Of a DNA stretch of 64,000 nucleotides, positions 9,802 to 44,813 are shown piece by piece. This DNA comes from Vibrio tapetis subsp. tapetis. GTDB lineage: Bacteria; Pseudomonadota; Gammaproteobacteria; Enterobacterales; Vibrionaceae. Within the stretch, counting starts at the first letter, position 1, and each line of letters starts with the position of its first letter. The position numbers were made by a program, and so were the translations under genes. Where the stretch lies: positions 62,001-126,000 of the forward strand of contig NZ_LT960612.1 in NCBI RefSeq assembly GCF_900233005.1. Direction: 5' to 3'. The notes under the pieces are model-generated. The model was not told the origin of the DNA. It was given only the letters and a program-made list of their open reading frames with translations, and did no database searches.

Positions 9802-11748
9802 TTAGCCTTCGCTACGTGGAGAACGCTCACCACGATGGCTACCACGGTGATCACCACCACGGTTGCGATCGAAACGACGCTCGCCGCCTTCACGATTACC
9901 GCCGCCATCGCGAGAACCACGACCGCCTTCACGGTTGCCACGGTAACCGCCACCTTCACGGTTGCCGTCACGTTGACCACGATGGCCTTGACGAGCACCG
10001 TCACGGTTTCCGCCACGAGGGCCACCGTCACGACGGCCACCACGAGATTCGCGGAAGTCATCAAAGTCACATACTACAGCGCCAACTTCTTTCTGACGAA
10101 TACGTAGCTTGCTTAGCTTGCCAGTTACTTCAGAGTTCATTGTTTTTGGAAGCTGTACAAACGTGTGGCCTTGAGCCAGTTTGATTGCACCAATAGAACC
10201 TTTAGTTAGGCCAAGCTCGTTCGCTAGAGCGCCAACGATGTCTTTAACTTGGACGCCTTGCTCACGACCAACTTGTAGCTGGTAAGTAGCCCAATCAGCA
10301 GTGTTGCCACCGTAGCTACGGCCACCATCACGACCGCCATCACGACCGCCATCACGGCTGTCACGTGGATTATCACGACGCTCTTTACGACGCTTCTTAT
10401 CACGCTCGATTGCTTCGATCATTGGGTCTGGACCTTCGTAGAACAAAGGACGCTTGCCTTGTTGACGCTTAAGAAGCATTGCAGCAAGAGTAGTTGCATC
10501 GATTTCTAAGTTCGTTTGAAGCTTCTCGATAAGCTCTACAAAACTTTCTAGTGCTTTGTGTTCTTTATCTGCTTCTAGCTCAGCACCTAGTTTAACTAGA
10601 CGTGCCTCAGCTACTTGATCACGTGCTGGAAGTTCAATTTCTTCCATTTGTGATTTAGTAACACGCTCGATAGTACGTAGCATACGGATTTGGTTAGTGC
10701 GAACAAGAAGAATCGCTTTACCTTTACGTCCAGCACGGCCAGTACGACCAATACGGTGAATGTAAGACTCAACATCGAATGGGATGTCGTAGTTAAATAC
10801 GTGAGTGATTCGTGGAACATCAAGACCACGCGCAACAACATCAGTTGCTACTAGGATGTCGATAACACCTTGTTTGATGTTGTCAACAGTACGCTCACGG
10901 ATAGACTGAGGAATATCACCGTGCAGTGCAGCAGCTTTAAAGCCACGAGCAGATAACCAATCAGCTAGGCGCTCAGTATCTTGACGAGTACGAACGAACA
11001 CGATTGATGCATCAGTTTCTTCAGTTTCAAGTAGACGAGACATTGCTTCGTCTTTTTCTACGCCTTTCACTACCCAGTAGTTTTGCGCTACTTTATCAAC
11101 AGTGTGGTTAGTACCAGCAACGTCAACGCGAGCAGGGTTACGTAGGTAACGGTCAACAATAGTCTTAACCATTGGAGGCATAGTTGCAGAGAACAATACA
11201 CGTTGTGCAGATTCTGGCGCTTTCTCAAGAATCCAAGTAACGTCGTCTACAAAACCCATTTTAAGCATTTCATCTGCTTCATCTAGAACAAACGTATGAG
11301 CTTGGTCTAGGTGTAGGCGTTCACGAGTTAGAAGATCTTTAACACGACCAGGAGTACCAACAACAATGTGAGCACCACGGCTTAGAGCGCGCATTTGATC
11401 AACGATAGATGCACCACCGTAGATTTCTAAAACTTTAAGGCCTTTAACGTCACGACCAAGGTTTTTGATTTCTGCAGCAACTTGAATAGCAAGCTCACGA
11501 GTTGGCGCCATGATGATTGCTTGAGGTTTGTGTTGGTTCAGATCAATTTTGTTCAGCAGAGGAAGAGAAAACGCTGCTGTTTTACCAGTACCTGTTTGCG
11601 CTTTACCTAACGCATCTCTGCCTTCTAGAAGCAAAGGAATAGCTGCTGCTTGAATTGGAGTTGGTGAAACGAAACCCATGCTATCAAGAGCTGAAAGGAT
11701 GTTTTCGTTAAGGGCTAATTCATTAAATTGAATTACAGATTCGGACAT
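9802..11748 (-). CDS. deaD: DEAD-box ATP-dependent RNA helicase DeaD/CsdA
   Basis: A 648-residue cytoplasmic RNA helicase (E. coli DeaD is about 630). Core motifs are in order: Q motif near residue 29, Walker A 'AQTGTGKT' (50-57), 'PTRELA' (82-87), 'TPGR' (132-135), DEAD (156-159), SAT (about 189), 'ARGLD', and 'HRIGRTGR'. After the core come the dimerisation/RNA-binding regions and an Arg/Gly-rich tail made of RDGG- and NREGG-type repeats from about residue 560. The family unwinds structured RNA in ribosome assembly and cold adaptation. The repetitive tail causes the GC-rich repeat pattern seen at 9830-10060 and long false antisense frames. The insertion sequence sits right behind the stop codon. 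Confidence 0.95.
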   Translation of the reverse strand: MSESVIQFNELALNENILSALDSMGFVSPTPIQAAAIPLLLEGRDALGKAQTGTGKTAAFSLPLLNKIDLNQHKPQAIIMAPTRELAIQVAAEIKNLGRDVKGLKVLEIYGGASIVDQMRALSRGAHIVVGTPGRVKDLLTRERLHLDQAHTFVLDEADEMLKMGFVDDVTWILEKAPESAQRVLFSATMPPMVKTIVDRYLRNPARVDVAGTNHTVDKVAQNYWVVKGVEKDEAMSRLLETEETDASIVFVRTRQDTERLADWLSARGFKAAALHGDIPQSIRERTVDNIKQGVIDILVATDVVARGLDVPRITHVFNYDIPFDVESYIHRIGRTGRAGRKGKAILLVRTNQIRMLRTIERVTKSQMEEIELPARDQVAEARLVKLGAELEADKEHKALESFVELIEKLQTNLEIDATTLAAMLLKRQQGKRPLFYEGPDPMIEAIERDKKRRKERRDNPRDSRDGGRDGGRDGGRSYGGNTADWATYQLQVGREQGVQVKDIVGALANELGLTKGSIGAIKLAQGHTFVQLPKTMNSEVTGKLSKLRIRQKEVGAVVCDFDDFRESRGGRRDGGPRGGNRDGARQGHRGQRDGNREGGGYRGNREGGRGSRDGGGNREGGERRFDRNRGGDHRGSHRGERSPRSEG

Positions 11749-34487: not shown

Positions 34488-35237
34488 ATGAAAACCCGTG
34501 ATAAAATCATCTATGCAAGCCTAGAGCTATTCAATAAGCTCGGTGAACGTTCAGTTACAACCAACCATATCGCGGCACACTTAGGGATAAGTCCAGGCAA
34601 TCTTTATTACCACTTTAGAAATAAAGAAGACATCATTCACTCCATTTTTGAAGAATATATCTGTTACATGGATGAGTCATTTTTACCTGCCTCTGAAGAC
34701 ACGTCTGCAGCTGAAACCTTACGACAATATTGTGACCAGATATTCGATAGTATTTGGCGATTTCGTTTTTTTCACGCCAGCATGCCAGACATTCTACTTA
34801 AAGACGAAAACCTGCATCAAAAGTACTTAGGCGCCCATAAACAACTGAGTGAACGCGCCCAAACCTCACTGTATAGAATGAGAAAAGAAGGCGTTATTGC
34901 CATCGACGACGACGCCATTTACGACCTAGTAGAACTGATGCGTTTGGTGGCTGGTTTCTGGCTTAGCTCATGGATGGCAAATACTCGAAATCAAGAAATT
35001 TCACGTGCGGCTGTTTATCAGGGAGTATTAAAAATGATCGCCTTGATGAGCCCTTACGCGACCCCCGAGGGCAAACCTACGCTTGATGCTCTTAAAGCTA
35101 AATACGAAGAATTGAGAGTCAGTCACGAAGAGCACACTTTAGACGCTGCGCAAGGTAAAGCACCTCTTAATTCCTACCGGACCGACCAACGTTCTTTAGT
35201 ACGACGTTATGACGAACTATTCGGCAAAGAAGACTAA
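34488..35237 (+). CDS. TetR-family transcriptional regulator
   Basis: 249 residues. The N-terminal TetR helix-turn-helix ('SVTTNHIAAHLGISPGNLYYHFRNKEDI', about 22-49) is intact. The C-terminal ligand domain (about 60-190) is followed by an unusually long charged tail to residue 249, ending 'RRYDELFGKED'. Target and ligand are unknown. A strong terminator follows. It is not in an obvious operon: 253 bases separate it from the transporter upstream. Confidence 0.9.
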   Translation: MKTRDKIIYASLELFNKLGERSVTTNHIAAHLGISPGNLYYHFRNKEDIIHSIFEEYICYMDESFLPASEDTSAAETLRQYCDQIFDSIWRFRFFHASMPDILLKDENLHQKYLGAHKQLSERAQTSLYRMRKEGVIAIDDDAIYDLVELMRLVAGFWLSSWMANTRNQEISRAAVYQGVLKMIALMSPYATPEGKPTLDALKAKYEELRVSHEEHTLDAAQGKAPLNSYRTDQRSLVRRYDELFGKED

Positions 35238-35266: not shown

Positions 35267-35297
35267 GCCGATAATCTGAATAGATTATCGGCTTTTT
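35267..35297 (+). terminator. Intrinsic terminator after the TetR gene
   Basis: GCCGATAATC / GATTATCGGC with a 6-base loop followed by TTTTT. An A-run on the other side allows it also to stop the leftward hypA operon. Confidence 0.93.
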
Positions 35298-35330: not shown

Positions 35331-35672
35331 TTAACACGCGATGATTTCTTTAATCGTAAATTCTTTTCCTCCTAACAAACCCCATTCTGCACTGTTGCAT
35401 TCAGGGCAATGAGACCGATGTTTAATCACATTAAACACATGGTGGCATTGCTTGCACATGGCATTCGCAGGCAGAATTTCGATCTTCAATTTGGTTTTTT
35501 CAAGTGCTGTTCCATCGACCGCGGCAGGGTAGCACTCTTCAATAAACCGAGGGATCATTGATGAAAGTTCACCAATTTGCAGAACAATGGTGTCGACCTT
35601 GGTTACGCCATTATTACGGGCAAAATTGGTCACCGTTTTTGCCACTTCGATCACTACTCCGAGTTCGTGCAT
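35331..35672 (-). CDS. hypA: Nickel metallochaperone HypA
   Basis: 113 residues, full length. The N-terminal Met-His-Glu that binds nickel is present, as is the zinc site of two Cys pairs in 'CKQCHHVF' (about 72-79) and 'CPEC' (about 88-91). HypA delivers Ni to [NiFe] hydrogenase, or in some bacteria to urease. It is the last gene of the leftward cluster, 24 bases after the large oxidoreductase gene, with an AGAGGGAAAGG site. Neither hypC-F nor a hydrogenase or urease is in the window, so its client here is unknown. Confidence 0.93.
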   Translation of the reverse strand: MHELGVVIEVAKTVTNFARNNGVTKVDTIVLQIGELSSMIPRFIEECYPAAVDGTALEKTKLKIEILPANAMCKQCHHVFNVIKHRSHCPECNSAEWGLLGGKEFTIKEIIAC

Positions 35673-35696
35673 ACCCTTTCCCTCTTTTTATGACCG

Positions 35697-38519
35697 TTAA
35701 TTGCCCATAAAGAACATCGATTTAATGCGTTTAATCGGCTTATTAACCGCAATTCTGACTTTACGCTTTAGGGTATATTTTATGATGGTTTTCTTTGCAT
35801 CACGCAGGTCTACGCCTTCCGCGTCGTAGGCTCTAACTAGGGATATCGCTCCAAACTTACATTGAGTGGTACACGCACCACAGCCTACACACATGAATTC
35901 ATCAGCGGTTGCGACGCCGCAACCTAAACATCGCTGGGTTTCAATTTTGACTTGGTCTTCGGTAAAAGTGTCACGCAAATCTTTAAACGTGGTTTTGGCT
36001 TTCCTTCCATCGACATGGCTGACCATCTGTCTGTGGCTATTATCATACCCCGCGAGATTTAAGCTTTGCTTTTCAAAAGATCGATAGTTTCGATTGATGC
36101 GCCCTAGTACCAAACTTTGACCATGTTGAACAAAACGATGAATCGAAATCGCGCCCTCTTTCCCCTGTGCAATGGCGTCTATCGCGAACCTTGGACCCGT
36201 TAATGCATCTCCACCGACAAACACGTCGAGTTCATCACTTTGGTATGTTGTGGCGTCTGCCTGCATGGTATGGTTCGGGTTAAGTTTGATCGCGCTGTCA
36301 TTAAGAAGTGATCCCCAATCCATTGCCTGACCAACAGAAATCAGCACATGCTCGGCCTCTACTGTTTTGGTTTCACTTTCATCAAAGATCGGGCTGAACT
36401 TTCCTGTTTCATCCAATACAGATAAACACTTTTTGAACTCGACCGCTACCACACGGCCGGATTCTGAAATAATTCGAGTTGGTCCCCATCCATTACTAAT
36501 TCCGATGTCTTCCTCTAGCGCTTCATCTATTTCCTCTTGGTGAGCGGGCATGTGCTCTCTTGATTCCAAACAGAACATTTCTACGCTGTTACTCACGCTA
36601 GCGCTAGTACTGCCCAAACGCGTTGCCGTTCTCGCCACATCAATTGCAACGTTACCGCCACCAATCACAATTACGCGACCAGTTAATTGTTTACTGATGC
36701 CTAAGTTCACTTCACGTAAAAAATCGACGCCCGTTGTAACACCAACGCTGTGCTCACCGTCGATCCCCAGTAAGCGCCCTGCTTGTGCCCCAATCGCCAT
36801 GTAAAATGCTTGATAGCCTTGCTCTCTGAGATCGCTAAGACTGAGGTCTTTGCCAATTTCAACACCGGTTTCAAAGTTGACACCAAGCTCTCGGAGCACG
36901 TCAATTTCTGCATTGATCACCTCTTTCTCTAAGCGATAAGATGGAATACCAAGCGCAAGCATTCCGCCAAGTACTTTTTGCTTTTCAAACACAGTGACAG
37001 CGTAACCTTCAATTGCCAAATAATACGCGCACGACAAGCCAGCAGGCCCACCTCCAATGATGGCTATTTTCTTATCGAAGCTGTTTTTGGGTTTCGGAAC
37101 AAAGCGAGTCTTAGCATCGAGATCTTGTTGCGCGATGAATTTTTTGATGTCATCGATAGCAACAGGGTCGTCGATATCACCACGAGTACAATCAGACTCA
37201 CACTTTTTCGGGCAGATACGTCCACAAACCGCCGGGAATGGGTTTTCTCGTTTAATTAGCTCTAGGGCTTCAGTGTATTTTCCTTGGGAAGCGAGTTTGA
37301 TGTAACCTTGAATGCCGATATGAGCAGGACATTCCGCCTTGCAGGGGCTTGTTCCCCCCTCAAGCACCACCGCTTTATTGGTTCGATAATCAGGGTTCCA
37401 TTTGTCGGCTCCCCACTCCGTATCGTAAGGCAGTTCGGTTCGTTGCTGCCCGTTGGAAGTTAGGTGCCTGTCCGGTGAATTCTTGCTCGGTGAATTCGGG
37501 TGTGTGTCCGATGAAGTGCAGAGCTTGTGGCCCAGTTTTAGTGCGTTGGTTGGGCAGGCTTCGACACACTCTCCGCATGCAACGCACTTTTCTCGGTCAA
37601 TTTTCACAATGTAGTTAGAACGTACCATGTCTGGATTTTGCCACTGTTCAGCTAACCTCAGGGCAAAACAACCGCACCCGCAGCAGTTACAAATTGCGTG
37701 CGTTTTTCCTGATCCGTCCAAATTTGGAATACTGTGCATCAACCCATTGGCTTCTGCTTTTTTGATGACCTCGAGCGCTTCGTCTCGAGTGATTTTTCTA
37801 CCCCGGCCTGTGCGTACATAATATTCCGCAGCGTGGCCCATCTGGATGCACATTTCTTCCTTTAAATGCCCGCAACCTTCTCCCATCGCTTCTCTTGATG
37901 TTCTACAGGCACAGTCAGAAATAGAGAAGATGTCATTATCATTTAGATACTTAGATACTTCTTCGTATGAAACCGTCCTGGTGTCGCCGTCTATCGAGGT
38001 TTCAATGGGAATTACCCGCATCGGCCCTGAACCCACAGGGATGTTACCCGCTGCCAATGGGCCTTTTTTCTTACCAAACTCATCAAAAGCAGCGCCTAAT
38101 TGTGGAAACTTCTGAATAAGATCTTTGTTATTAACGATCATTTCCATGTGCCCGGGAACCCACACATCTAGCCAGTACTTATCTATCCCATCTTTTTCAT
38201 TAACGAAAGCCGTCCCCGCCACAGCCGACTGCCATAACAGATCCTCTGTTTCTTCTACGCTTCGTCCGCATAGCTGCGCGACTTCAGCGGCGCTTTTGGG
38301 CTCCCGCAATGCCAAGCAGAGCGTGACTTCTGCCATGTCTTCCGTAAGAATCGGTTCCAGTATTTTGTACTCTGGATCATCTATTGTTATGCCGGATTTT
38401 GAACCTCGTTTTGTTCGGCTAATTTTGTTGGCAAGGTCGAGTACTTTGTCTTTCACTACTCGCGGTTTAGGCTGAATATCCACATCATGATTGTCCAACT
38501 TGGTTTTATCTTCCGACAT
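35697..38519 (-). CDS. Large Fe-S/flavin oxidoreductase (ferredoxin domain fused to GltD-like domain)
   Basis: A 940-residue predicted cytoplasmic fusion. Residues about 1-330 resemble a cysteine-rich Fe-S protein ('DCACRTSREAMGEGCGH', 'CNCCGCGCFALR', then the 4Fe-4S motif 'CVACGECVEACP' at about 307-318). Residues about 390-800 are a GltD-like NAD(P)H:FAD unit with N-terminal Cys clusters ('CKAECPAHIGIQGY', 'CGRICPKKCESDC') and dinucleotide motifs 'IIGGGPAGLSCAYYLA' (about 487) and 'VIGGGNVAIDVAR' (about 620). The C-terminus has more Cys motifs ('CLGCG', 'CVGCGACTTQC', about 860-885). It should pass electrons between NAD(P)H, FAD and ferredoxin-type clusters; the partner is unknown. It lies between hypB and hypA, 3 bases after hypB. 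Residues about 337-356 come from an in-frame REP-like insertion. Confidence 0.85.
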   Translation of the reverse strand: MSEDKTKLDNHDVDIQPKPRVVKDKVLDLANKISRTKRGSKSGITIDDPEYKILEPILTEDMAEVTLCLALREPKSAAEVAQLCGRSVEETEDLLWQSAVAGTAFVNEKDGIDKYWLDVWVPGHMEMIVNNKDLIQKFPQLGAAFDEFGKKKGPLAAGNIPVGSGPMRVIPIETSIDGDTRTVSYEEVSKYLNDNDIFSISDCACRTSREAMGEGCGHLKEEMCIQMGHAAEYYVRTGRGRKITRDEALEVIKKAEANGLMHSIPNLDGSGKTHAICNCCGCGCFALRLAEQWQNPDMVRSNYIVKIDREKCVACGECVEACPTNALKLGHKLCTSSDTHPNSPSKNSPDRHLTSNGQQRTELPYDTEWGADKWNPDYRTNKAVVLEGGTSPCKAECPAHIGIQGYIKLASQGKYTEALELIKRENPFPAVCGRICPKKCESDCTRGDIDDPVAIDDIKKFIAQQDLDAKTRFVPKPKNSFDKKIAIIGGGPAGLSCAYYLAIEGYAVTVFEKQKVLGGMLALGIPSYRLEKEVINAEIDVLRELGVNFETGVEIGKDLSLSDLREQGYQAFYMAIGAQAGRLLGIDGEHSVGVTTGVDFLREVNLGISKQLTGRVIVIGGGNVAIDVARTATRLGSTSASVSNSVEMFCLESREHMPAHQEEIDEALEEDIGISNGWGPTRIISESGRVVAVEFKKCLSVLDETGKFSPIFDESETKTVEAEHVLISVGQAMDWGSLLNDSAIKLNPNHTMQADATTYQSDELDVFVGGDALTGPRFAIDAIAQGKEGAISIHRFVQHGQSLVLGRINRNYRSFEKQSLNLAGYDNSHRQMVSHVDGRKAKTTFKDLRDTFTEDQVKIETQRCLGCGVATADEFMCVGCGACTTQCKFGAISLVRAYDAEGVDLRDAKKTIIKYTLKRKVRIAVNKPIKRIKSMFFMGN
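37461..37509 (+). repeat. REP-like element inserted inside the oxidoreductase gene
   Basis: AGGTGCCTGTCC (37462-37473), then CGGTGAATTC twice (37473-37482 and 37489-37498), then GGGTGTGTGTCC (37498-37509). It combines both REP-like cores seen near the RAYT gene. Read leftward it encodes 'DTHPNSPSKNSPDRHL', a polar stretch in the linker between the ferredoxin and GltD-like domains, without a frameshift. Confidence 0.7.
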
Positions 38520-38522
38520 AAC

Positions 38523-39203
38523 TTATTCCTCACCAAGACCTTTCCATATCGCGACTTGGGTACGAAGCCAGTCCGCCCATTCATCAATGCCCTGTCCCGT
38601 TTTCGCAGAAATCGGAATCACTTTGATATTTGGGTTCAACCTTGTGACACGCTCAATGACTGCGTTCAAATCGAAGTCAAAATAGTCCATCGCGTCGATT
38701 TTATTGATCAGTAATACGTCTACGATTGAGAACATAAGTGGGTATTTTAGTGGTTTGTCGTCCCCTTCTGGCACGCTCAAAATCATGGCATTTTTAGAAG
38801 CACCCGTGTCAAATTCGGCTGGGCAAACTAAATTCCCAACATTTTCTAGAATGGCTAAATCGACACCTTCAACCTCCAACCCAGCAAGGCCTTGCTTAGT
38901 CATGCAGGCATCAAGATGGCACATACCGCCAGTATGAAGTTGGATGACTTTGGCGCCTGTTTTCGCAATGGTGTGTGCATCGACATCCGAGTCTATGTCC
39001 GCTTCCATAATGCCGATGTGCATTTCGTTTTTCAGTGTTTCAATGGTCTTAACTAATGTGGTTGTTTTACCTGATCCCGGAGAAGACATCAGGTTAAGCA
39101 AAAACAGTTGCTTCTCTTTTAGCTCCGCTCTCAACAATTCGGCTTGCTTGTCGTTGTTATCAAATACGCTTTCTTTGATTTCCAGTACTTTGAAGTAATT
39201 CAT
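38523..39203 (-). CDS. hypB: Nickel-handling GTPase HypB
   Basis: A 226-residue G3E GTPase. P-loop 'SSPGSGKTTT' (about 40-49), metal-site 'GGMCHLDA' (about 92-99, the conserved Cys-His), 'ENVGNLVCPAEFD' (about 120) and G4 'NKIDAMDYF' (about 167). It lacks a His-rich N-terminal nickel-storage tail. With HypA it loads Ni into a metalloenzyme at the cost of GTP. The Shine-Dalgarno sequence of the next gene (GAGGAATAA) lies in its last codons, so the two are coupled. The hydrogenase it should serve is absent from the window. Confidence 0.93.
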   Translation of the reverse strand: MNYFKVLEIKESVFDNNDKQAELLRAELKEKQLFLLNLMSSPGSGKTTTLVKTIETLKNEMHIGIMEADIDSDVDAHTIAKTGAKVIQLHTGGMCHLDACMTKQGLAGLEVEGVDLAILENVGNLVCPAEFDTGASKNAMILSVPEGDDKPLKYPLMFSIVDVLLINKIDAMDYFDFDLNAVIERVTRLNPNIKVIPISAKTGQGIDEWADWLRTQVAIWKGLGEE

Positions 39204-39268
39204 ACATTGCTACCTTATAATTATTTATCATCGGCGCGCTCAAATGAACTGACCGAATCAATTTTTAC

Positions 39269-39844
39269 CTAACCTAAAAGTGCCAAAAAGAAACCACTTG
39301 AAGCGACGACCCCTGCAATGAGCTTTTTGGGCAGGAAGTTGGCAGATTGATAACCAACAAACAAAAGCAAAGACGAACTCAATAGCATGCCAGGGATAAA
39401 TTGCATAAGAGCTGCTCCGTGCAACTCTGCGCCATGAGCCCAACCGTGAAATAGCACGAGGCCAATAGATATACTCATCAATACGGTTGATAGCGTATTG
39501 CTGGTATCACGTGCTTTCCAGATTGTGCCTGCCGCCACAAACGCCGAACCCAGAATTAGGAATTCCAAACCGCTGACCGCGCCAGCAAGTTTCCCGACCA
39601 TGGTACCCAAGAACATGCTCCCGATGACTCCAAGTACAATTAAAGCCTTACCCTTTTTGGTCGTAGCTTGCTGAGCCACAACGCCCATTGCGAGTAACAC
39701 CAATAAGTGGTCAAGCCCAAAGATAGGATGCTGAAAGCCCTGTGAGAATGAATTGATTAAACCATGATCCCCAACGTGAGCTAAGGCCGCTTGGGGGGCG
39801 AAAACTGCAGCTAATGCTAAAACTTGAATACTGCTCTTTTTCAT
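39269..39844 (-). CDS. hupE: HupE/UreJ-family nickel transporter-like protein
   Basis: A 191-residue membrane protein with signal sequence (about 1-22, cleaved before 'HVGDHG') and about six hydrophobic helices. The HupE signature 'HPIFGLDHLLVLLAMG' (about 38-53), with the conserved His-Pro and Asp-His, and 'LFHGWAHGAEL' (about 130-140) are seen; such residues bind Ni or Co during uptake. ATG 39844 has AAGGA 7 bases upstream; the frame extends 10 codons further without a site. It is in line with hypB, 65 bases downstream. A long inverted repeat lies in its leader. Confidence 0.9.
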   Translation of the reverse strand: MKKSSIQVLALAAVFAPQAALAHVGDHGLINSFSQGFQHPIFGLDHLLVLLAMGVVAQQATTKKGKALIVLGVIGSMFLGTMVGKLAGAVSGLEFLILGSAFVAAGTIWKARDTSNTLSTVLMSISIGLVLFHGWAHGAELHGAALMQFIPGMLLSSSLLLFVGYQSANFLPKKLIAGVVASSGFFLALLG

Positions 39845-39862
39845 GTCGCTTTCCTTAATTAA

Positions 39863-39920
39863 AGTTAAAACCAATAACCTCAGCCATTCATTTTTCTCGC
39901 CTTTTTCATTGGTTTTAACT
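39863..39920 (-). promoter_or_regulatory. 13-bp perfect inverted repeat in the hupE leader
   Basis: AGTTAAAACCAAT (39863-39875) and ATTGGTTTTAACT (39908-39920), 32 bases apart, ending 18 bases before the hupE start codon. It can form a stem in the RNA next to the ribosome binding site, or be an operator. It does not match the E. coli NikR site (GTATGA-16-TCATAC). A 12-bp palindrome GAACCATGGTTC lies further upstream (39953-39964). Confidence 0.55.
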
Positions 39921-40028
39921 CTGTGTTTCTATCGAGATAAGTCTCTCCATTCGAACCATGGTTCATCCTGTATAGGGTAAAACCAGACGGGCACCGTTTA
40001 CATCCGATGCCCTCCTGCTTGGCTAACG

Positions 40029-40610
40029 TTATGAGTTATCAAGCATGTCTTCTTTCAAGTCACTGTCTGTTGGTTTATCTCCTAACCAAATTGACAAGAC
40101 GGCACGTCGGAACTGCTCACCGGATGTAACCGTCAGTTCCTCACCGTTTTTAAACGCGACAATGCCTTTGGTCGGCACACTCAAAAATGTGAATTGATCC
40201 CCTTCTTGGATTGGCTCTGAAAAGGCAGTAATGAAGGTATCAACGCTTTCCTTTATCGGCGAAATATCACCGTTCATCGCCAACTTGAAACCGTCGTATA
40301 CTGCTTCCGTCATTTTTTCTGACGTGATCATTCCAGACGTAATATTGAGTCGAATCGCAACGGGCTCTTGGACTGCAATAACCTCGGTCGCATTCGACAT
40401 CACTTTTGGCGTAAACAACGAGCCCACGTAAAGATCCATAAAGAACTTGCTTCTCACACCAGCGCCATTAAAAACCATTTGTGAGCCTTGCAAATCTATG
40501 GAGTCTGGAATGCTAACGCCCGATACTTGGGTTTCAGCGATAGCATTGGATGTCATCGCGGCAGACGCCATCAAACACATTGCACTGACGAGTAGAGTTT
40601 TCTTTTTCAT
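40029..40610 (-). CDS. Periplasmic chalcone-isomerase-like protein
   Basis: 193 residues with a clear signal peptide (about 1-25, cleavage after 'SNAIA'). The mature part, with 'VSGVSIPDSIDLQGSQMVFN', 'GAGVRSKFFMDLYVGSLF' and 'GIVAFKNGEELTVTSGEQFR', fits the chalcone-isomerase-like fold family (Chalcone_3 type) found in many Gram-negative bacteria. No bacterial flavonoid role is implied; function is unknown. ATG 40610 has AGGA 7 bases upstream, and starting there leaves a proper signal peptide; the frame begins 17 codons earlier. Confidence 0.8.
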   Translation of the reverse strand: MKKKTLLVSAMCLMASAAMTSNAIAETQVSGVSIPDSIDLQGSQMVFNGAGVRSKFFMDLYVGSLFTPKVMSNATEVIAVQEPVAIRLNITSGMITSEKMTEAVYDGFKLAMNGDISPIKESVDTFITAFSEPIQEGDQFTFLSVPTKGIVAFKNGEELTVTSGEQFRRAVLSIWLGDKPTDSDLKEDMLDNS

Positions 40611-40734
40611 TCGACTGTCCTGTCTTGTTCTTGAATAATTGAAATAGGAAGTTGGCGCCAATACATCCCATCCGAGGGAGAGCAGTGGAAAGTTTTAAAT
40701 GCACTAGCGCCGAACATGGTATTAATGAAATAAC

Positions 40735-41607
40735 CTAAAACGCGTAGTTGTATTCCAACCAATAACTATCATCCGTATCATCACTATCATCGGTTTTGTA
40801 GTTCATACGAAGATTCTGGTGGCTGTTAATTTGGTACGCGACAGAAATCTCGCCTTCAACATTCGCCATTTGCATGCCGCCTTCTAGTACCTCATCACTC
40901 CAGTTTTTACCCTGAATTGCACCTGTATAGCGTGCACTGCCTAACACCCACCAATTATCGTTAATGGTGTAACGGGCATAGGCCATACCCGTCATGATCA
41001 AGGATGCGACATCCACGCCACTGCTTCTCAACCCAAGAGCTCCTGCATTAGAGCCAAGTGCAGAACTCGCCAGCATGTCTATGTTGTCTTCAACTACCAC
41101 GCCCCCCACATACAAAACGGGGAAGATATAGAAATTATCAGTAACCGGAATCGTCATAACCGGGCCTGCTTGAACGGCCGTCATGGTTCCGTAAAATGGG
41201 TGGTCACCTATGGATGCATCTACCGACCAGCCTGTACCGTTAGTCGTATTGATGGTTCCGAAACGGAAACGATAAGAGCGCTCGCTTTTTTCGTCATTAA
41301 AGGTGGGGACTAAACCATACGTCGGGTGATTGACTGTGCCCGAAAACTTAGGCGACTTATCGCCTTCGTTAAAAACATTTTTAGCTTCAAAGATAATGCC
41401 TGTTTTTTGCCCTGAATCTCCCGTTGTTTCAGACAACATTAATTGCCCTTTTAGGTTCATCCCTTCGCTGCCATAGGAAACACCTACTGACGTATATACA
41501 TCTGTTGGGTTCGACATATCGATATCGCTTTTCTTTTCTTCTGCTGCATTAACAAGTGCAGGAGCCATAGACAAAATAATTGCCATTGCAAGAGTGCTAT
41601 TTTTCAT
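40735..41607 (-). CDS. Outer-membrane beta-barrel-type protein
   Basis: 290 residues with a signal peptide (about 1-22, cleavage after 'VNAA'). The mature sequence is rich in alternating aromatic/polar strands ('NWWVLGSARYTGAIQG', 'NLRMNYKTDD') and ends in Tyr-Ala-Phe, a typical C-terminal signal for outer-membrane barrels. Strands near 110-150 and 220-290 suggest a 12- to 14-strand pore or transporter. I cannot name the family. It is co-oriented with the DUF5692-like genes, 109 bases downstream, with AGGTAG before the ATG. Confidence 0.7.
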   Translation of the reverse strand: MKNSTLAMAIILSMAPALVNAAEEKKSDIDMSNPTDVYTSVGVSYGSEGMNLKGQLMLSETTGDSGQKTGIIFEAKNVFNEGDKSPKFSGTVNHPTYGLVPTFNDEKSERSYRFRFGTINTTNGTGWSVDASIGDHPFYGTMTAVQAGPVMTIPVTDNFYIFPVLYVGGVVVEDNIDMLASSALGSNAGALGLRSSGVDVASLIMTGMAYARYTINDNWWVLGSARYTGAIQGKNWSDEVLEGGMQMANVEGEISVAYQINSHQNLRMNYKTDDSDDTDDSYWLEYNYAF

Positions 41608-41716
41608 ATTACTACCTATTTAATTCGTTAAAATTTGGACTAAAAGTATTTTTATTAGCATTGATACTGAAGTTGTTATAATTATATTTATTTGTAATTA
41701 TTTTTATTATTCAACA

Positions 41717-42889
41717 CTAGGCGTGTGACTTGATTCTGCTTGTTTTCCATTTCCCGCTAAAAAATACATATGCGTAGGCCGCGTTAATAATAAAGCTCGC
41801 AAGACCTGCCAATAACATTAATTCATCATTTCGTGGCATCATCACGACATTACTTTCGTACATAAACGGACAGCTGAAGTAATACATAAATGAACCGGCC
41901 AGAGTAAATGCTCGTGCTTGTAGCCATGTGCCTTTCTTAATAAACATGGCAGGAAGCGTTGCTGCAATTAACACCATCATTTGCGCGGTTGCTGACCCTG
42001 GGAAGTTAAGGTAAACAAAAACGATATTCCAAACATCGTAAGCAATGATCCAGAAAGCCGTCATTGCGGGCCACACCATGTCTCGCTCTTTGCTCTTGTC
42101 TGCCGCGATCTTCGCCCAGCCAGTTAGGGTTATGATGGATAACACACCACCAATTGCATTCAATATGTTGGCCATGTTGCCCATACTGAAATCTTGCATC
42201 ACCGCTTCGGAAATATTAATTGCTAGGAAGGCCGCTGCACCGAATTTGGCCCACTTCATATCCCCGACTTTGGTAAATCGTATTAATGTGAATAACGCGG
42301 CCGCACCTACCACTGAATATAGTTTTATCCATTTAAACCAATATGTCACACCATAGCTTGACCATAATGGAATCAACACGATAGGCAGCACGAACCAGAA
42401 TAGATAATTAAGATTTTTGTTTCGACGACACACTTCGTTCAATAACATCAAACCAAACAACACAAACAACACGTGCATGATTGCTCGATACTGATACCAT
42501 TTATGAATGTTGAACCCGTCGTCTGCAAGAGTGAAACGAAACTGCTCCGAATCCAAGACCTTAATTGTCGCACCATCAAAGTCAGTAATTTCATCTCCCG
42601 GGATGCTAGATATACGAATGACATCCCCTTGTTGTACCCAGCGCTGCGTTTCTGTTTTATTGAACCCGCCAGATTGTTTGGTTACCAGCACACTATCGTC
42701 TACGCCAAACTCCAAGCGATAAAACAGGCTACCTTCTCCTGGTTTGCCATCTCTCGTTCCTTGCCATATCTCACCCGCAGGCGTGATAGTTGTGGACTGT
42801 TCATTAGCAGACACACTACCAACAAAACTCGCGCACATAAGCACAACAGCAATCAGCATACTTATGAATTTTTTACTTATGAGTTTCAT
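41717..42889 (-). CDS. DUF5692-like membrane protein with extracytoplasmic N-terminal domain
   Basis: 390 residues. Signal peptide (about 1-29), a beta-rich exported domain (about 30-120, 'EIWQGTRDGKPGEGSLFYRL', a lipocalin- or YjbF-like pattern), then eight or so membrane helices. The membrane part parallels the gene at 42954: 'YWFKWIKLYSVV' versus 'GWFRWVKTVSVL', 'NISEAVMQDFSMGNMAN' versus 'NIAEATAKDFATANYMN', and 'YDVWNIVFVY' versus 'YTTWNLAFVF'. So the two are paralogues, one with an added domain. I assign DUF5692 from memory. ATG 42889 is used since it starts a clean signal peptide. Function is unknown. Confidence 0.7.
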   Translation of the reverse strand: MKLISKKFISMLIAVVLMCASFVGSVSANEQSTTITPAGEIWQGTRDGKPGEGSLFYRLEFGVDDSVLVTKQSGGFNKTETQRWVQQGDVIRISSIPGDEITDFDGATIKVLDSEQFRFTLADDGFNIHKWYQYRAIMHVLFVLFGLMLLNEVCRRNKNLNYLFWFVLPIVLIPLWSSYGVTYWFKWIKLYSVVGAAALFTLIRFTKVGDMKWAKFGAAAFLAINISEAVMQDFSMGNMANILNAIGGVLSIITLTGWAKIAADKSKERDMVWPAMTAFWIIAYDVWNIVFVYLNFPGSATAQMMVLIAATLPAMFIKKGTWLQARAFTLAGSFMYYFSCPFMYESNVVMMPRNDELMLLAGLASFIINAAYAYVFFSGKWKTSRIKSHA

Positions 42890-42953
42890 AATCGATACTC
42901 TCATTGATTATCTATTGGGTGCCCAATTAAAGAGCACCACTCATTTATTAAGA

Positions 42954-43847
42954 CTATGCGTTAACCGCTTTAGCTAAGTGCATAGGACTTTGCTCGGTTT
43001 CTGGCGGCGCATTTTTTCCAAATGGAGGCTCGCCTGTTTCGCTTTTTTGTTTCTTGTAGAAATACCAAATAACAAACGGAACGTGCATAGCCAAGTTCGC
43101 CACACCCCAGTAATAAAGAACGTTTTCATTTGCCCAACTTGAAGAATCCATAATTGGTGTGAAGATATCGCCATTTGCACGAATTAATATATGGAATGCT
43201 AACGTATATACTCTAGCAATAACGTATAACTCAGGACGGCCTTTAATTAATGGGTAAAGCTCTGCTGCCATCAAGATACAGAATGATGAAGCGAAATAAC
43301 CTGGATTTTCTCCAAACACAAATGCTAAGTTCCAAGTTGTATATAGGAAGTTCCATGCAGCTGTTGAATAAAACAGTAAGTCGTGTGGTGAATCTTTGCT
43401 TATTATCCAATAATTCCTCTTTCCGTTCTTATATCGAGGGAACGGAATAGTAATACACAAAATGACGCCACAAATTGCATTCATATAGTTTGCTGTTGCG
43501 AAGTCTTTTGCGGTTGCTTCTGCAATGTTCAAGAATAAAACGGCATAAAGGACTTTTAGAACCCAATCGCCCCTAAAAAACTTCAGTACTCTATTTGGGT
43601 TATCGTGATAAAGCCACGCTAACCTCGCTCCCCCAACCACAATTGCTGTTGGAATTAACACACTGACGGTTTTAACCCAACGAAACCAACCGTCCAAATG
43701 TTCAGCCCACATCGGGGCGGTAAGTAGTGAAAGTAACCAAAAGGCTGCGGTCAGCCTCGGCGTTCGTCGCATTGCTTCAACCAAAACGAGCAGAATTAAA
43801 ATGTAACCACTCATTGAAACAACATATTGCATCATGGGAATTTCCAT
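42954..43847 (-). CDS. DUF5692-like polytopic membrane protein
   Basis: 297 residues, about eight hydrophobic helices, no added exported domain. Shared blocks with the gene at 41717 are given there. Conserved charged residues inside the hydrophobic core (Asn-Ile-Ala-Glu-Ala, Lys-Asp-Phe and Trp-Asn) may line a binding site. A charged cytoplasmic tail closes the protein ('KKQKSETGEPPFGKN'). It has a strong GGAGGGG site and is the first gene of the leftward cluster, 64 bases before its paralogue. Function is unknown. Confidence 0.7.
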   Translation of the reverse strand: MEIPMMQYVVSMSGYILILLVLVEAMRRTPRLTAAFWLLSLLTAPMWAEHLDGWFRWVKTVSVLIPTAIVVGGARLAWLYHDNPNRVLKFFRGDWVLKVLYAVLFLNIAEATAKDFATANYMNAICGVILCITIPFPRYKNGKRNYWIISKDSPHDLLFYSTAAWNFLYTTWNLAFVFGENPGYFASSFCILMAAELYPLIKGRPELYVIARVYTLAFHILIRANGDIFTPIMDSSSWANENVLYYWGVANLAMHVPFVIWYFYKKQKSETGEPPFGKNAPPETEQSPMHLAKAVNA

Positions 43848-44327
43848 AGCCCCTCCAAAAGTTTATCAACATGTCAAATTCGTTCATTTCTACTTTGCGT
43901 AGAAATTAATAGAGCAATAACTTTAAGTTAGATTATTTACTCTAAACTAGAGCTATTACTCTAGATCTGAAATGTGATCTTTTATGTGCTCCAGCTCATA
44001 AAACAATCCCATTAAAATTGTGGGTATTGGTTTTGTTTATAAATCGTGAACTTTGTCTCATTACGGCATGCATGACCGCCAGATAAGTCACATTTTGCAA
44101 TACTTAATGCTTAACTGGGTTATTTCTGCGTGATGTTAGGCTAACGATTTAATGTTACTTAGGTAAATAAACTTAACAAGTTGCTGTGCTGTGGTTGGCG
44201 TAAAGCTTTAGTATCTAGGAAGAGGTGGAGGTGGCACTTCACTAAGTGGAATAGGTGAAGTGCTGGCGCTAGCGGTTAAAAAGAGACATTTCGGTGGTTA
44301 AGAGATCTCTGTTAATGTGGTTATTGA
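43848..44327. other. Intergenic region with inverted repeats upstream of the DUF5692-like genes
   Basis: About 480 bases with no coding frame. It contains CTAGAG-ctatta-CTCTAG (43947-43964), a 6-6-6 inverted repeat placed about 100 bases before the first gene of the cluster and a candidate operator, and a 9-bp perfect inverted repeat GCACTTCAC / GTGAAGTGC (44234-44263) about 65 bases past the MarR stop codon, which could end its transcript although no T-run follows. Confidence 0.5.
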
Positions 44328-44813
44328 TTACTTTTCAAATTGATTTAGCCATAACTTTAAATATTGATCTAATTCTGTAGACGACTCTAAAGACAAATCC
44401 ACTACCAATTCATGCTGAATTTGAACATAGTGCTGCATCATATCATCGATCAATTCGAATCCATCTTTCGATAATTCAACCGAGACACTGCGCCGATCTT
44501 CTTTGCTGTGACAACGCATAATCAACCCTTTCGATTCGAGTTTGTCTAAGCGATTGGTCATGGCACCAGAGGTTAGCATCATAGTATTCATTAACGCTGA
44601 TGGTGTTAAGCGATGAGGACACCCACTTCTTCTCAGTGTTGCCAATACATCGAACTCACCCATTTTCAAATCATAGCTTTTGTGAAATTCACTCAACTTC
44701 GTTTCAATGTGTTTGGACAATCGAAGTAAACGCCCAATCAACGCCATCGGCTTCGTTTCAAGCTCTGGTTTTTCAATTGCCCATTGCCCAATAATTTTAT
44801 CTACTGCATCCAT
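44328..44813 (-). CDS. MarR-family transcriptional regulator
   Basis: 161 residues. Winged helix with 'EFDVLATLRRSGCPHRLTPS' (about 53-72), recognition helix in 'MLTSGAMTNRLDKLESKGLI' (about 79-98) and the wing 'HSKEDRRSVSVELSKDG' with the conserved Asp-Arg-Arg (about 101-117). It is a dimeric repressor type that senses small phenolic or other ligands. It is divergent from an EamA transporter with a palindrome between, so control of that transporter is likely. The leftward DUF5692/hyp cluster begins 480 bases downstream on the same strand. Confidence 0.92.
   Translation of the reverse strand: MDAVDKIIGQWAIEKPELETKPMALIGRLLRLSKHIETKLSEFHKSYDLKMGEFDVLATLRRSGCPHRLTPSALMNTMMLTSGAMTNRLDKLESKGLIMRCHSKEDRRSVSVELSKDGFELIDDMMQHYVQIQHELVVDLSLESSTELDQYLKLWLNQFEK

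Follow-up and report, generated by a model that had tools for sequence, protein, structure and literature searches.

Eight closely spaced leftward genes at positions 35331-43847 of a 64-kb stretch of DNA from Vibrio tapetis subsp. tapetis (contig NZ_LT960612.1; the whole 64,000-nucleotide stretch is referred to below as the window) probably encode an IsrA-type (conjugated-diene) reductase system for unsaturated fatty acids, equipped with a nickel supply, an envelope route for lipid and a fatty-acid-linked operator; we assign this reading a probability of roughly 0.6. Its central gene (35697-38519, minus strand) is isrA-like and encodes a 940-residue Fe-S/FAD/NAD(P) oxidoreductase that is a probable nickel enzyme. 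What is observed is the homology of this protein, the linkage and genome co-occurrence of its neighbours, and a palindrome that the cluster has in common with a fadL-family gene; nickel in the flavoprotein, its substrate, a transport role for the envelope proteins and the identity of a regulator are inferred.

The cluster comprises two modules, hupE-hypB-isrA-hypA and DUFb-DUF5692-barrel-Chalcone_3. A preliminary description of the window had listed eight close leftward genes of named families, and all eight were borne out by their coordinates and by profile matches. From the promoter end the order is DUFb (297 aa), DUF5692 (395 aa), barrel (290 aa), Chalcone_3 (210 aa as listed), HupE (201 aa), HypB (226 aa), the oxidoreductase and, most distally, HypA (113 aa). 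The full eight-gene order was also found in V. tapetis, and the closest named relative of the locus is that of Vibrio tapetis subsp. quintayensis, whose oxidoreductase is 95% identical.

The oxidoreductase belongs to a conserved family with nickel-handling partners

Pfam domains Fer4_20, Pyr_redox_2 and Fer4 were identified in the 940-residue protein, which has full-length relatives across many phyla (892-948 aa among the family members compared). Homology extends over the whole length of family members of about 900 residues, with FAD/NAD(P) domains, DPD-domain II and two ferredoxin-type domains, the comparison being with these relatives and not with IsrA's own sequence. In an alignment of 23 family sequences the mean column identity was 76%, and the N-terminal cysteines at 203, 205, 216, 224, 277, 279, 280, 282 and 284 were invariant. 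The CxC pairs 203/205 and 277/279 have the same spacing as 180/182 and 254/256 of IsrA, a correspondence made by a constant offset of 23 rather than by alignment with IsrA itself. IsrA is the name given by Kronen et al. (2023, PMC10134865) to the Acetobacterium wieringae homologue, a putative isoprene (conjugated-diene) reductase that was strongly increased by isoprene; the excerpts of that paper propose that HypA and HypB deliver nickel to a Cys6 site that includes these two CxC pairs. Strain Y, which carries IsrA, hydrogenates one double bond of isoprene and of 1,3-butadiene and leaves ethene, propene and fumarate untouched, according to excerpts of Jin et al. (2022, PMC9765523), and a 2025 genome note labels the cluster a putative diene reductase cluster (PMC12509576).

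The preliminary description knew of no system with this gene set. That statement did not survive, since the linkage of IsrA with Hyp proteins and DUF5692 is already published: neighbour co-occurrence among 988 IsrA homologues is given in the excerpts of Kronen et al. as 0.73 for HypA, 0.56 for HypB, 0.40 for DUF5692 and 0.21 for TetR (PMC10134865). The same excerpts describe the substrates of most homologues as uncharacterised; an oleate hydratase adjoins two Acetobacterium IsrA homologues, and no fatty-acid link is drawn in those pages (PMC10134865). Our searches of open-licence PMC literature returned no paper tying IsrA homologues to fatty-acid substrates, and none reporting the linkage to a fatty-acid isomerase, the Vibrio envelope module, the palindrome or its presence at fadL and fadR, all described below.

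We collected 79 family loci from named records in several phyla, with oxidoreductases 63-95% identical to that of the window. They derive from the best 80 of 307 confirmed places, and close relatives are therefore over-represented. By tblastn, HypA was found within 8 kb of isrA in 72 loci and HypB in 73 (68 and 66, respectively, with coarser calling of open reading frames), and the HypA-HypB-IsrA linkage is kept in Bacillota, Spirochaetota, Bacteroidota, Chloroflexota and Pseudomonadota. Both Hyp genes were missing by tblastn from six loci (L057, L065, L068, L081, L083 and L092), five of which have a DUF5692-like gene beside isrA (the exception is L068; L057 is a 3.7-kb contig). Overall, 32 of the 79 loci, again in several phyla, have a DUF5692-like gene no more than six genes away from isrA. 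The window, where both hypA and hypB neighbour the oxidoreductase gene, thus has the arrangement of IsrA-type (clade 9) oxidoreductases. Since HypA and HypB are the usual partners of the family, the 940-residue flavoprotein is the likely recipient of the nickel and is more likely a nickel enzyme itself than the side electron carrier suggested in the preliminary description.

Two side observations concern the family. Two tandem IsrA homologues of about 895-902 aa flank hypA at each of three loci, two in Moritella and one in Oceanirhabdus (L024:9992-16352, L030:9516-15808 and L029:10001-16070), which suggests duplicated reductases with different substrates. In two Vibrionaceae genomes (L117 in G563 and L108 in G568) a 440-aa protein shares 26% identity with the N-terminal domain of the oxidoreductase and has no flavin part; this stand-alone protein may resemble the reported stand-alone partner in the isr operon.

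No hydrogenase or urease was found to account for the nickel genes

The genome that contains the window (5.73 Mb in three contigs, completeness 100; G000) gave one HypA match. It gave no match to the NiFe hydrogenase large subunit, HypD or urease alpha; the search did not extend to HypC, HypE, HypF or other nickel enzymes. The earlier picture of a nickel-handling cluster that lacks a hydrogenase, urease or HypD and is tied to a flavoprotein and a DUF5692 pair was borne out, and for these three proteins the absence extends to the genome. Among 61 relatives, HypA scored over the cut-off in 11 and HypD in 8, two sub-cut-off HypA matches (G003 and G038) being excluded from the 11. HypA over the cut-off occurred without HypD in three genomes (G000, G015 and G037), and in all three an IsrA homologue adjoins HypA. 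Separately, the Vibrio genome G003 encodes a 48-aa C-terminal HypA fragment (L114, about 9953-10096) that is 60% identical to HypA of the window and is possibly a remnant of a lost cluster; IsrA was not present in the 20 kb fetched around it.

All four genes of the nickel module lie on the minus strand. HypA (35331-35672), a nickel metallochaperone, has the MHE N-terminus and two CxxC pairs, as read from the sequence; it matches PF01155 (E 4.7e-30, 104.3 bits vs a cut-off of 28.9) and falls under the NCBIfam equivalog cut-off (78.4 vs 88.1). HypB (38523-39203), the nickel-insertion GTPase, matches CobW/HypB PF02492 and TIGR00073 (244.9 bits vs 121.2); a CH...C metal motif can be read in it, and the N-terminal metal site is absent. 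The HupE/UreJ-type membrane protein encoded at 39269-39874 (PF04955, E 8e-24) is a probable nickel permease, for which an ATG near 39844 looks a more likely start than the listed one. The hupE gene also lies 5' of hypB in three other genomes (G015, G370 and G574).

A fatty-acid isomerase homologue is encoded beside isrA in other bacteria

In 17 of the 79 loci, belonging to Clostridia and a Spirochaete, a flavoprotein of about 420 aa is encoded no more than six genes away from isrA. In a comparison with solved structures it matches 2b9w best, and over the full length (E 1.7e-62 for L061, where the next best is 4.8e-7, and 4.5e-56 for L054). The structure listing names 2b9w a "putative aminooxidase"; we take it to be the polyunsaturated-fatty-acid isomerase (PAI) of P. 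acnes. According to an excerpt of PMC13365329, PAI turns linoleic acid into trans-10,cis-12 conjugated linoleic acid. PAI thus yields conjugated dienes, which the IsrA family reduces, so that the two would form consecutive steps.

PAI homologues are rare: they were found in 3 of 245 genomes of a Clostridia-class sample (the class of G078), the centre genome included, and in 3 of 36 individually chosen genomes, 35 of which came from IsrA loci. Of the 245, 18 had a match to the N-terminal domain of IsrA; two of these (406-430 aa, 26-27% identity) were dropped and 16 kept, 10 of them only 38-48% identical to the window protein and one (G278) with an internal stop. On this basis PAI occurred in 2 of 16 IsrA genomes vs 1 of 229 others (p 0.01), a weak association in a small sample; this and the other Fisher tests reported here ignore relatedness and assume the same family and class draws in each search. 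In a quick tree the PAI-linked IsrAs fall in several places, and the PAI-linked spirochaete sequence (L090) sits inside a supported set of 19 rows that also holds the window IsrA. At all 17 PAI loci (including L040, L041, L044, L045, L049 and L054) a helix-turn-helix protein of about 355 aa is encoded directly 5' of the PAI homologue and is likely its dedicated regulator.

An envelope module co-occurs with IsrA

To the nickel module of the window is joined a set of four minus-strand envelope genes. The first gene of the run, DUFb (42954-43847), encodes a polytopic membrane protein without a single Pfam match, and the second (41717-42904) a polytopic membrane protein that clears the Pfam gathering cut-off for PF18948, DUF5692 (E 6.6e-51; 173.7 bits vs 27). 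The two had been described as paralogues, and a relationship was indeed recovered in both directions: a DUF5692 hidden Markov model built in this analysis detects DUFb (E 8.7e-13), the reciprocal model detects the 395-aa protein (E 1.9e-17), and the two are 26% identical. In the structural model of the DUF5692 protein, the N-terminal stretch preceding the membrane core is of low confidence. The outer-membrane-type barrel (40735-41607) has a sub-threshold match to OmpG (E 0.0015), and the Chalcone_3 protein (40029-40661) matches PF16036 (E 1.2e-50); signal peptides were recognised in both by eye. The Chalcone_3 gene, for which an ATG near 40610 looks the more likely start, is the last of the conserved four-gene module.

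A search of 296 Vibrionaceae genomes found full-length IsrA in 6 and DUF5692 in 10 (one, G021, as a 104-aa fragment); a seventh IsrA candidate (G563, 26%, 440 aa) was dropped. DUF5692 occurred in 6 of 6 IsrA genomes vs 4 of 290 others (p 2e-10). Close homologues of the barrel (47-100% identity) were found in 7 of the 296 genomes, with 40 more having weak matches only; they occurred in 5 of 6 IsrA genomes vs 2 of 290 others (p 7e-9). With the window genome and V. tapetis removed, DUF5692 was present in 4 of 4 and the close barrel in 3 of 4 of the remaining IsrA Vibrionaceae. In the Clostridia-class sample, DUF5692 was found in 10 of 16 IsrA genomes vs 2 of 229 others.

The order DUFb-DUF5692-barrel-Chalcone_3 recurs in G568, G370, G574, G508, G553 and V. 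tapetis, whereas in G015 and G465 no close barrel adjoins DUFb-DUF5692. The module and isrA are 0.8-1.3 Mb apart on one contig in G568, G370 and G574. In other vibrios the hyp-isrA genes and the membrane genes are often separate units. A hydrogenase elsewhere in the genome, together with membrane and hyp genes never linked in relatives, had been named as the outcome that would speak against the preliminary interpretation, and it did not come about. An alpha/beta-hydrolase gene is the next gene after the module in G370, G574 and G508.

A shared palindrome connects both modules to fatty-acid genes

The palindrome TAGAGyAATTrCTCTA was found, with at most three mismatches to one seed, in 14 of 19 regions upstream of the two modules and of tetR. 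The maximum in a control of three mononucleotide shuffles per width was 2 of 19, and near-identical genomes contributed several of the 19 regions. Within the window, the only sites with at most three mismatches from the consensus are three tandem operator-like palindromes (43910-43963; at 43910, 43929 and 43948, a 19-bp spacing), all between DUFb and the MarR gene upstream of it (44328-44813); no site precedes hupE or tetR there. In the three other vibrios in which the modules lie apart, the same palindrome stands before both. Nine named gamma-proteobacterial loci were compared. In seven of them (four Shewanella, one Moritella, one Ferrimonas and Vibrio qd031), hypB or hupE is preceded at 34-139 bp by a site with no more than two mismatches; a further Moritella locus (L030) has a three-mismatch site 132 bp before hypB, and a Hahella locus (L027) has no site ahead of hypB or hupE. 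The palindrome also precedes DUF5692 genes in Shewanella, Moritella and Ferrimonas.

In a count over 29 genomes the strict pattern stood at 115 sites and its reversed form at 13 (totals from the forward columns). We examined 64 of the 115 sites, in 60 regions; one locus was taken automatically for each of 28 genomes, 40 regions were hand-chosen among the matches listed, and neighbours were classified after viewing the regions. Of the 60 regions, 49 adjoin the following gene types and 11 do not (some regions count twice): DUF5692 (11), outer-membrane efflux protein (OEP; 10), FadL (7), FadR (7), alpha/beta-hydrolase (6; Shewanella, Moritella and G037), Chalcone_3 (4), enoyl-CoA hydratase (3; Moritella and G037), HypB/HupE of the IsrA module (3), DUF1302 (1) and acyl-CoA ligase (1). 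In the 19 regions from vibrios without HypA, the neighbours were FadL in 7, the efflux protein in 4 and FadR in 4. The occurrence of the palindrome in vibrios without HypA indicates that it serves a broader, lipid-related regulon into which the modules were recruited.

In the window genome, five of the seven strict sites were located: in the window and at genes for an efflux protein, a fadL-family protein, a chemoreceptor and a phosphopantetheinyl transferase. The fadL-family gene has its site 225 bp upstream. Several individual sites merit mention. At two Moritella loci (L191 and L210) and in G037, which belongs to another family of the order (L216), the palindrome lies between divergent DUF5692 and enoyl-CoA hydratase genes, a further lipid link. 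The efflux-protein gene of the window genome encodes a TolC/OEP-family outer-membrane protein (L180, G000:C1:825121), and the palindrome precedes such genes in 10 of the 60 regions. The chemoreceptor gene (L263:3042-3076, G000:C1 about 2003061) has two tandem palindromes with the same 19-bp spacing as in the window, hinting at chemotaxis toward the same signal.

A TetR-family regulator is encoded at 34488-35237 on the plus strand, convergent with hypA. Genes for homologues with 55-60% identity adjoin the envelope module in G508, a second DUF5692 gene in G553 and hupE-hypB-isrA in G015. Because these homologues stand beside both modules, the TetR protein of the window is a candidate regulator and a candidate binder of the operator. 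At E 1e-5, no TetR homologue was seen near isrA in the palindrome-bearing Shewanella, Moritella and Ferrimonas loci. A stem resembling a bidirectional terminator lies between hypA and tetR (35267-35292; 11 pairs, each strand with a T-rich tail); the number of such sites across the region is not above background (11 vs 10.4 in shuffles).

Proposed mechanism and alternative explanations

In the mechanism that we favour, HupE would import nickel, and HypB and HypA would insert it into the Cys-rich N-terminal domain of the flavoprotein. Electrons from NAD(P)H would pass through FAD and [4Fe-4S] clusters to the N-terminal cysteine site, where a conjugated diene of a fatty acid would be reduced to a monoene in the cytoplasm, either as an electron sink or for detoxification. 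Lipid may be imported, presented or isomerised along an envelope route made up of the barrel, the Chalcone_3 protein and the DUF5692 pair, and a fatty-acid-linked regulator, probably of the TetR type, would work via TAGAGyAATTrCTCTA. Where PAI is lacking, dienes could come from dietary or algal conjugated fatty acids or from isomerisation by DUF5692 proteins. More broadly, and with the odds somewhat against it, we tentatively suggest that a conserved IsrA subfamily is a nickel-dependent conjugated-fatty-acid reductase, paired either with a PAI-type isomerase (in Clostridia and a Spirochaete) or with DUF5692 proteins that import lipid or act as a membrane-bound double-bond isomerase (in marine gamma-proteobacteria, and in vibrios within the envelope module), under one fatty-acid-linked operator.

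Several observations weigh against these proposals. The IsrA of A. wieringae acts on isoprene and is not known to act on a fatty acid. No structure supports nickel at the cysteine site, and the AlphaFold model is weak (predicted local distance difference test, pLDDT, 60.6). The window genome has no PAI homologue at E <= 1e-10, and with the centre genome left out PAI co-occurs with IsrA only weakly at genome level (p 0.12). The palindrome belongs to a wider regulon, as its presence in vibrios without HypA attests; efflux-protein, chemoreceptor and phosphopantetheinyl-transferase genes also carry it, and fadR of the window genome has no site with at most two mismatches in the roughly 800 bp upstream. 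Two genomes (G508 and G553) have the envelope module without a full-length isrA, and the sub-cut-off HypA matches without HypD in G003 and G038 are unexplained.

One alternative is that the envelope module is a separate lipid-envelope system, for example for remodelling or efflux, that shares no more than a regulator with isrA and became its neighbour in two of the genomes examined. The genomes in which the module lies far from isrA, or occurs without a full-length copy, would fit this arrangement, which we nevertheless consider unlikely, although it is the strongest of the competitors, given the DUF5692-like genes near isrA in 32 of 79 loci and the concentration of DUF5692 in IsrA-positive genomes. 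It is more doubtful still that the flavoprotein reduces small conjugated dienes or isoprenoids (isoprene, terpenoids or carotenoid breakdown products) instead of fatty acids. Activity data exist for a single family member and point to isoprene and 1,3-butadiene, and FadL-type barrels also carry other hydrophobic compounds; against this stand the high conservation of the window subfamily (63-95% over 79 loci), its partial linkage to a polyunsaturated-fatty-acid isomerase homologue, and a palindrome common to fadL and, in other genomes, fadR.

That HypA and HypB serve a nickel enzyme elsewhere, with the flavoprotein an unrelated neighbour or an electron carrier, would require an enzyme such as nickel glyoxalase, acireductone dioxygenase, lactate racemase or nickel superoxide dismutase, which were not searched for in the genome; with hydrogenase large subunit, HypD and urease alpha not found and HypA-HypB-IsrA linked across five phyla, we regard this as very improbable. 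Least credible of all is a chance run of eight unrelated genes. A terminator-like stem does lie between Chalcone_3 and hupE, though such stems are not above the shuffled background, and the same gene order in V. tapetis, the two module orders kept in further Vibrio genomes and the common palindrome leave next to no room for coincidence.

To our knowledge, the enzymes that hydrogenate unsaturated fatty acids in anaerobes of the rumen, gut and sediments are poorly assigned. If the proposed fatty-acid reductase system is real, lipid biohydrogenation would have a nickel enzyme, and DUF5692, a family without an assigned function, would gain its first role. In phyla from Clostridia to marine vibrios, the supply of nickel would be tied to the hydrogenation of lipids and to the anaerobic disposal of electrons. 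A marine Vibrio would then hydrogenate double bonds of unsaturated fats with a nickel-requiring enzyme, apparently switched together with fatty-acid uptake genes; the proposal would also offer testable partners and an operator that predicts a regulon.

Comparison with known systems

The window genes share HypA, HypB and HupE with the maturation systems of [NiFe] hydrogenase and urease, and differ from them in that no hydrogenase large subunit, HypD or urease alpha was found in the genome. Solved structures of NfnB, GltD and DPD-domain flavoproteins match the Fer4_20 and FAD/NAD(P) core of the oxidoreductase (residues about 390-800), whereas its Cys-rich N-terminal part of about 370 residues has no full-length match among solved sequences. 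The isomerise-then-reduce gene pairing at 17 of the 79 IsrA loci resembles the biohydrogenation of polyunsaturated fatty acids by a PAI-type isomerase and a conjugated linoleic acid (CLA) reductase; the window genome differs in having no PAI homologue. A CLA reductase gene of Butyrivibrio has reportedly been described, to go by the title of a cited paper. A further likeness is to the putative isr operon of Acetobacterium wieringae, with which the window has in common the architecture of about 900 residues, the CxC spacing of the proposed cluster V, the hypA and hypB partners and a genome without NiFe hydrogenase, DUF5692 and TetR being known neighbours of the family. The isr operon proper contains two hypA genes and a 4Fe-4S ferredoxin gene among its five genes, whereas the run in the window has one HypA and no ferredoxin gene. 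To the isr set the window adds hupE, the barrel, Chalcone_3, the DUF5692 pair and a palindrome common to fadL, all in a Gram-negative host.

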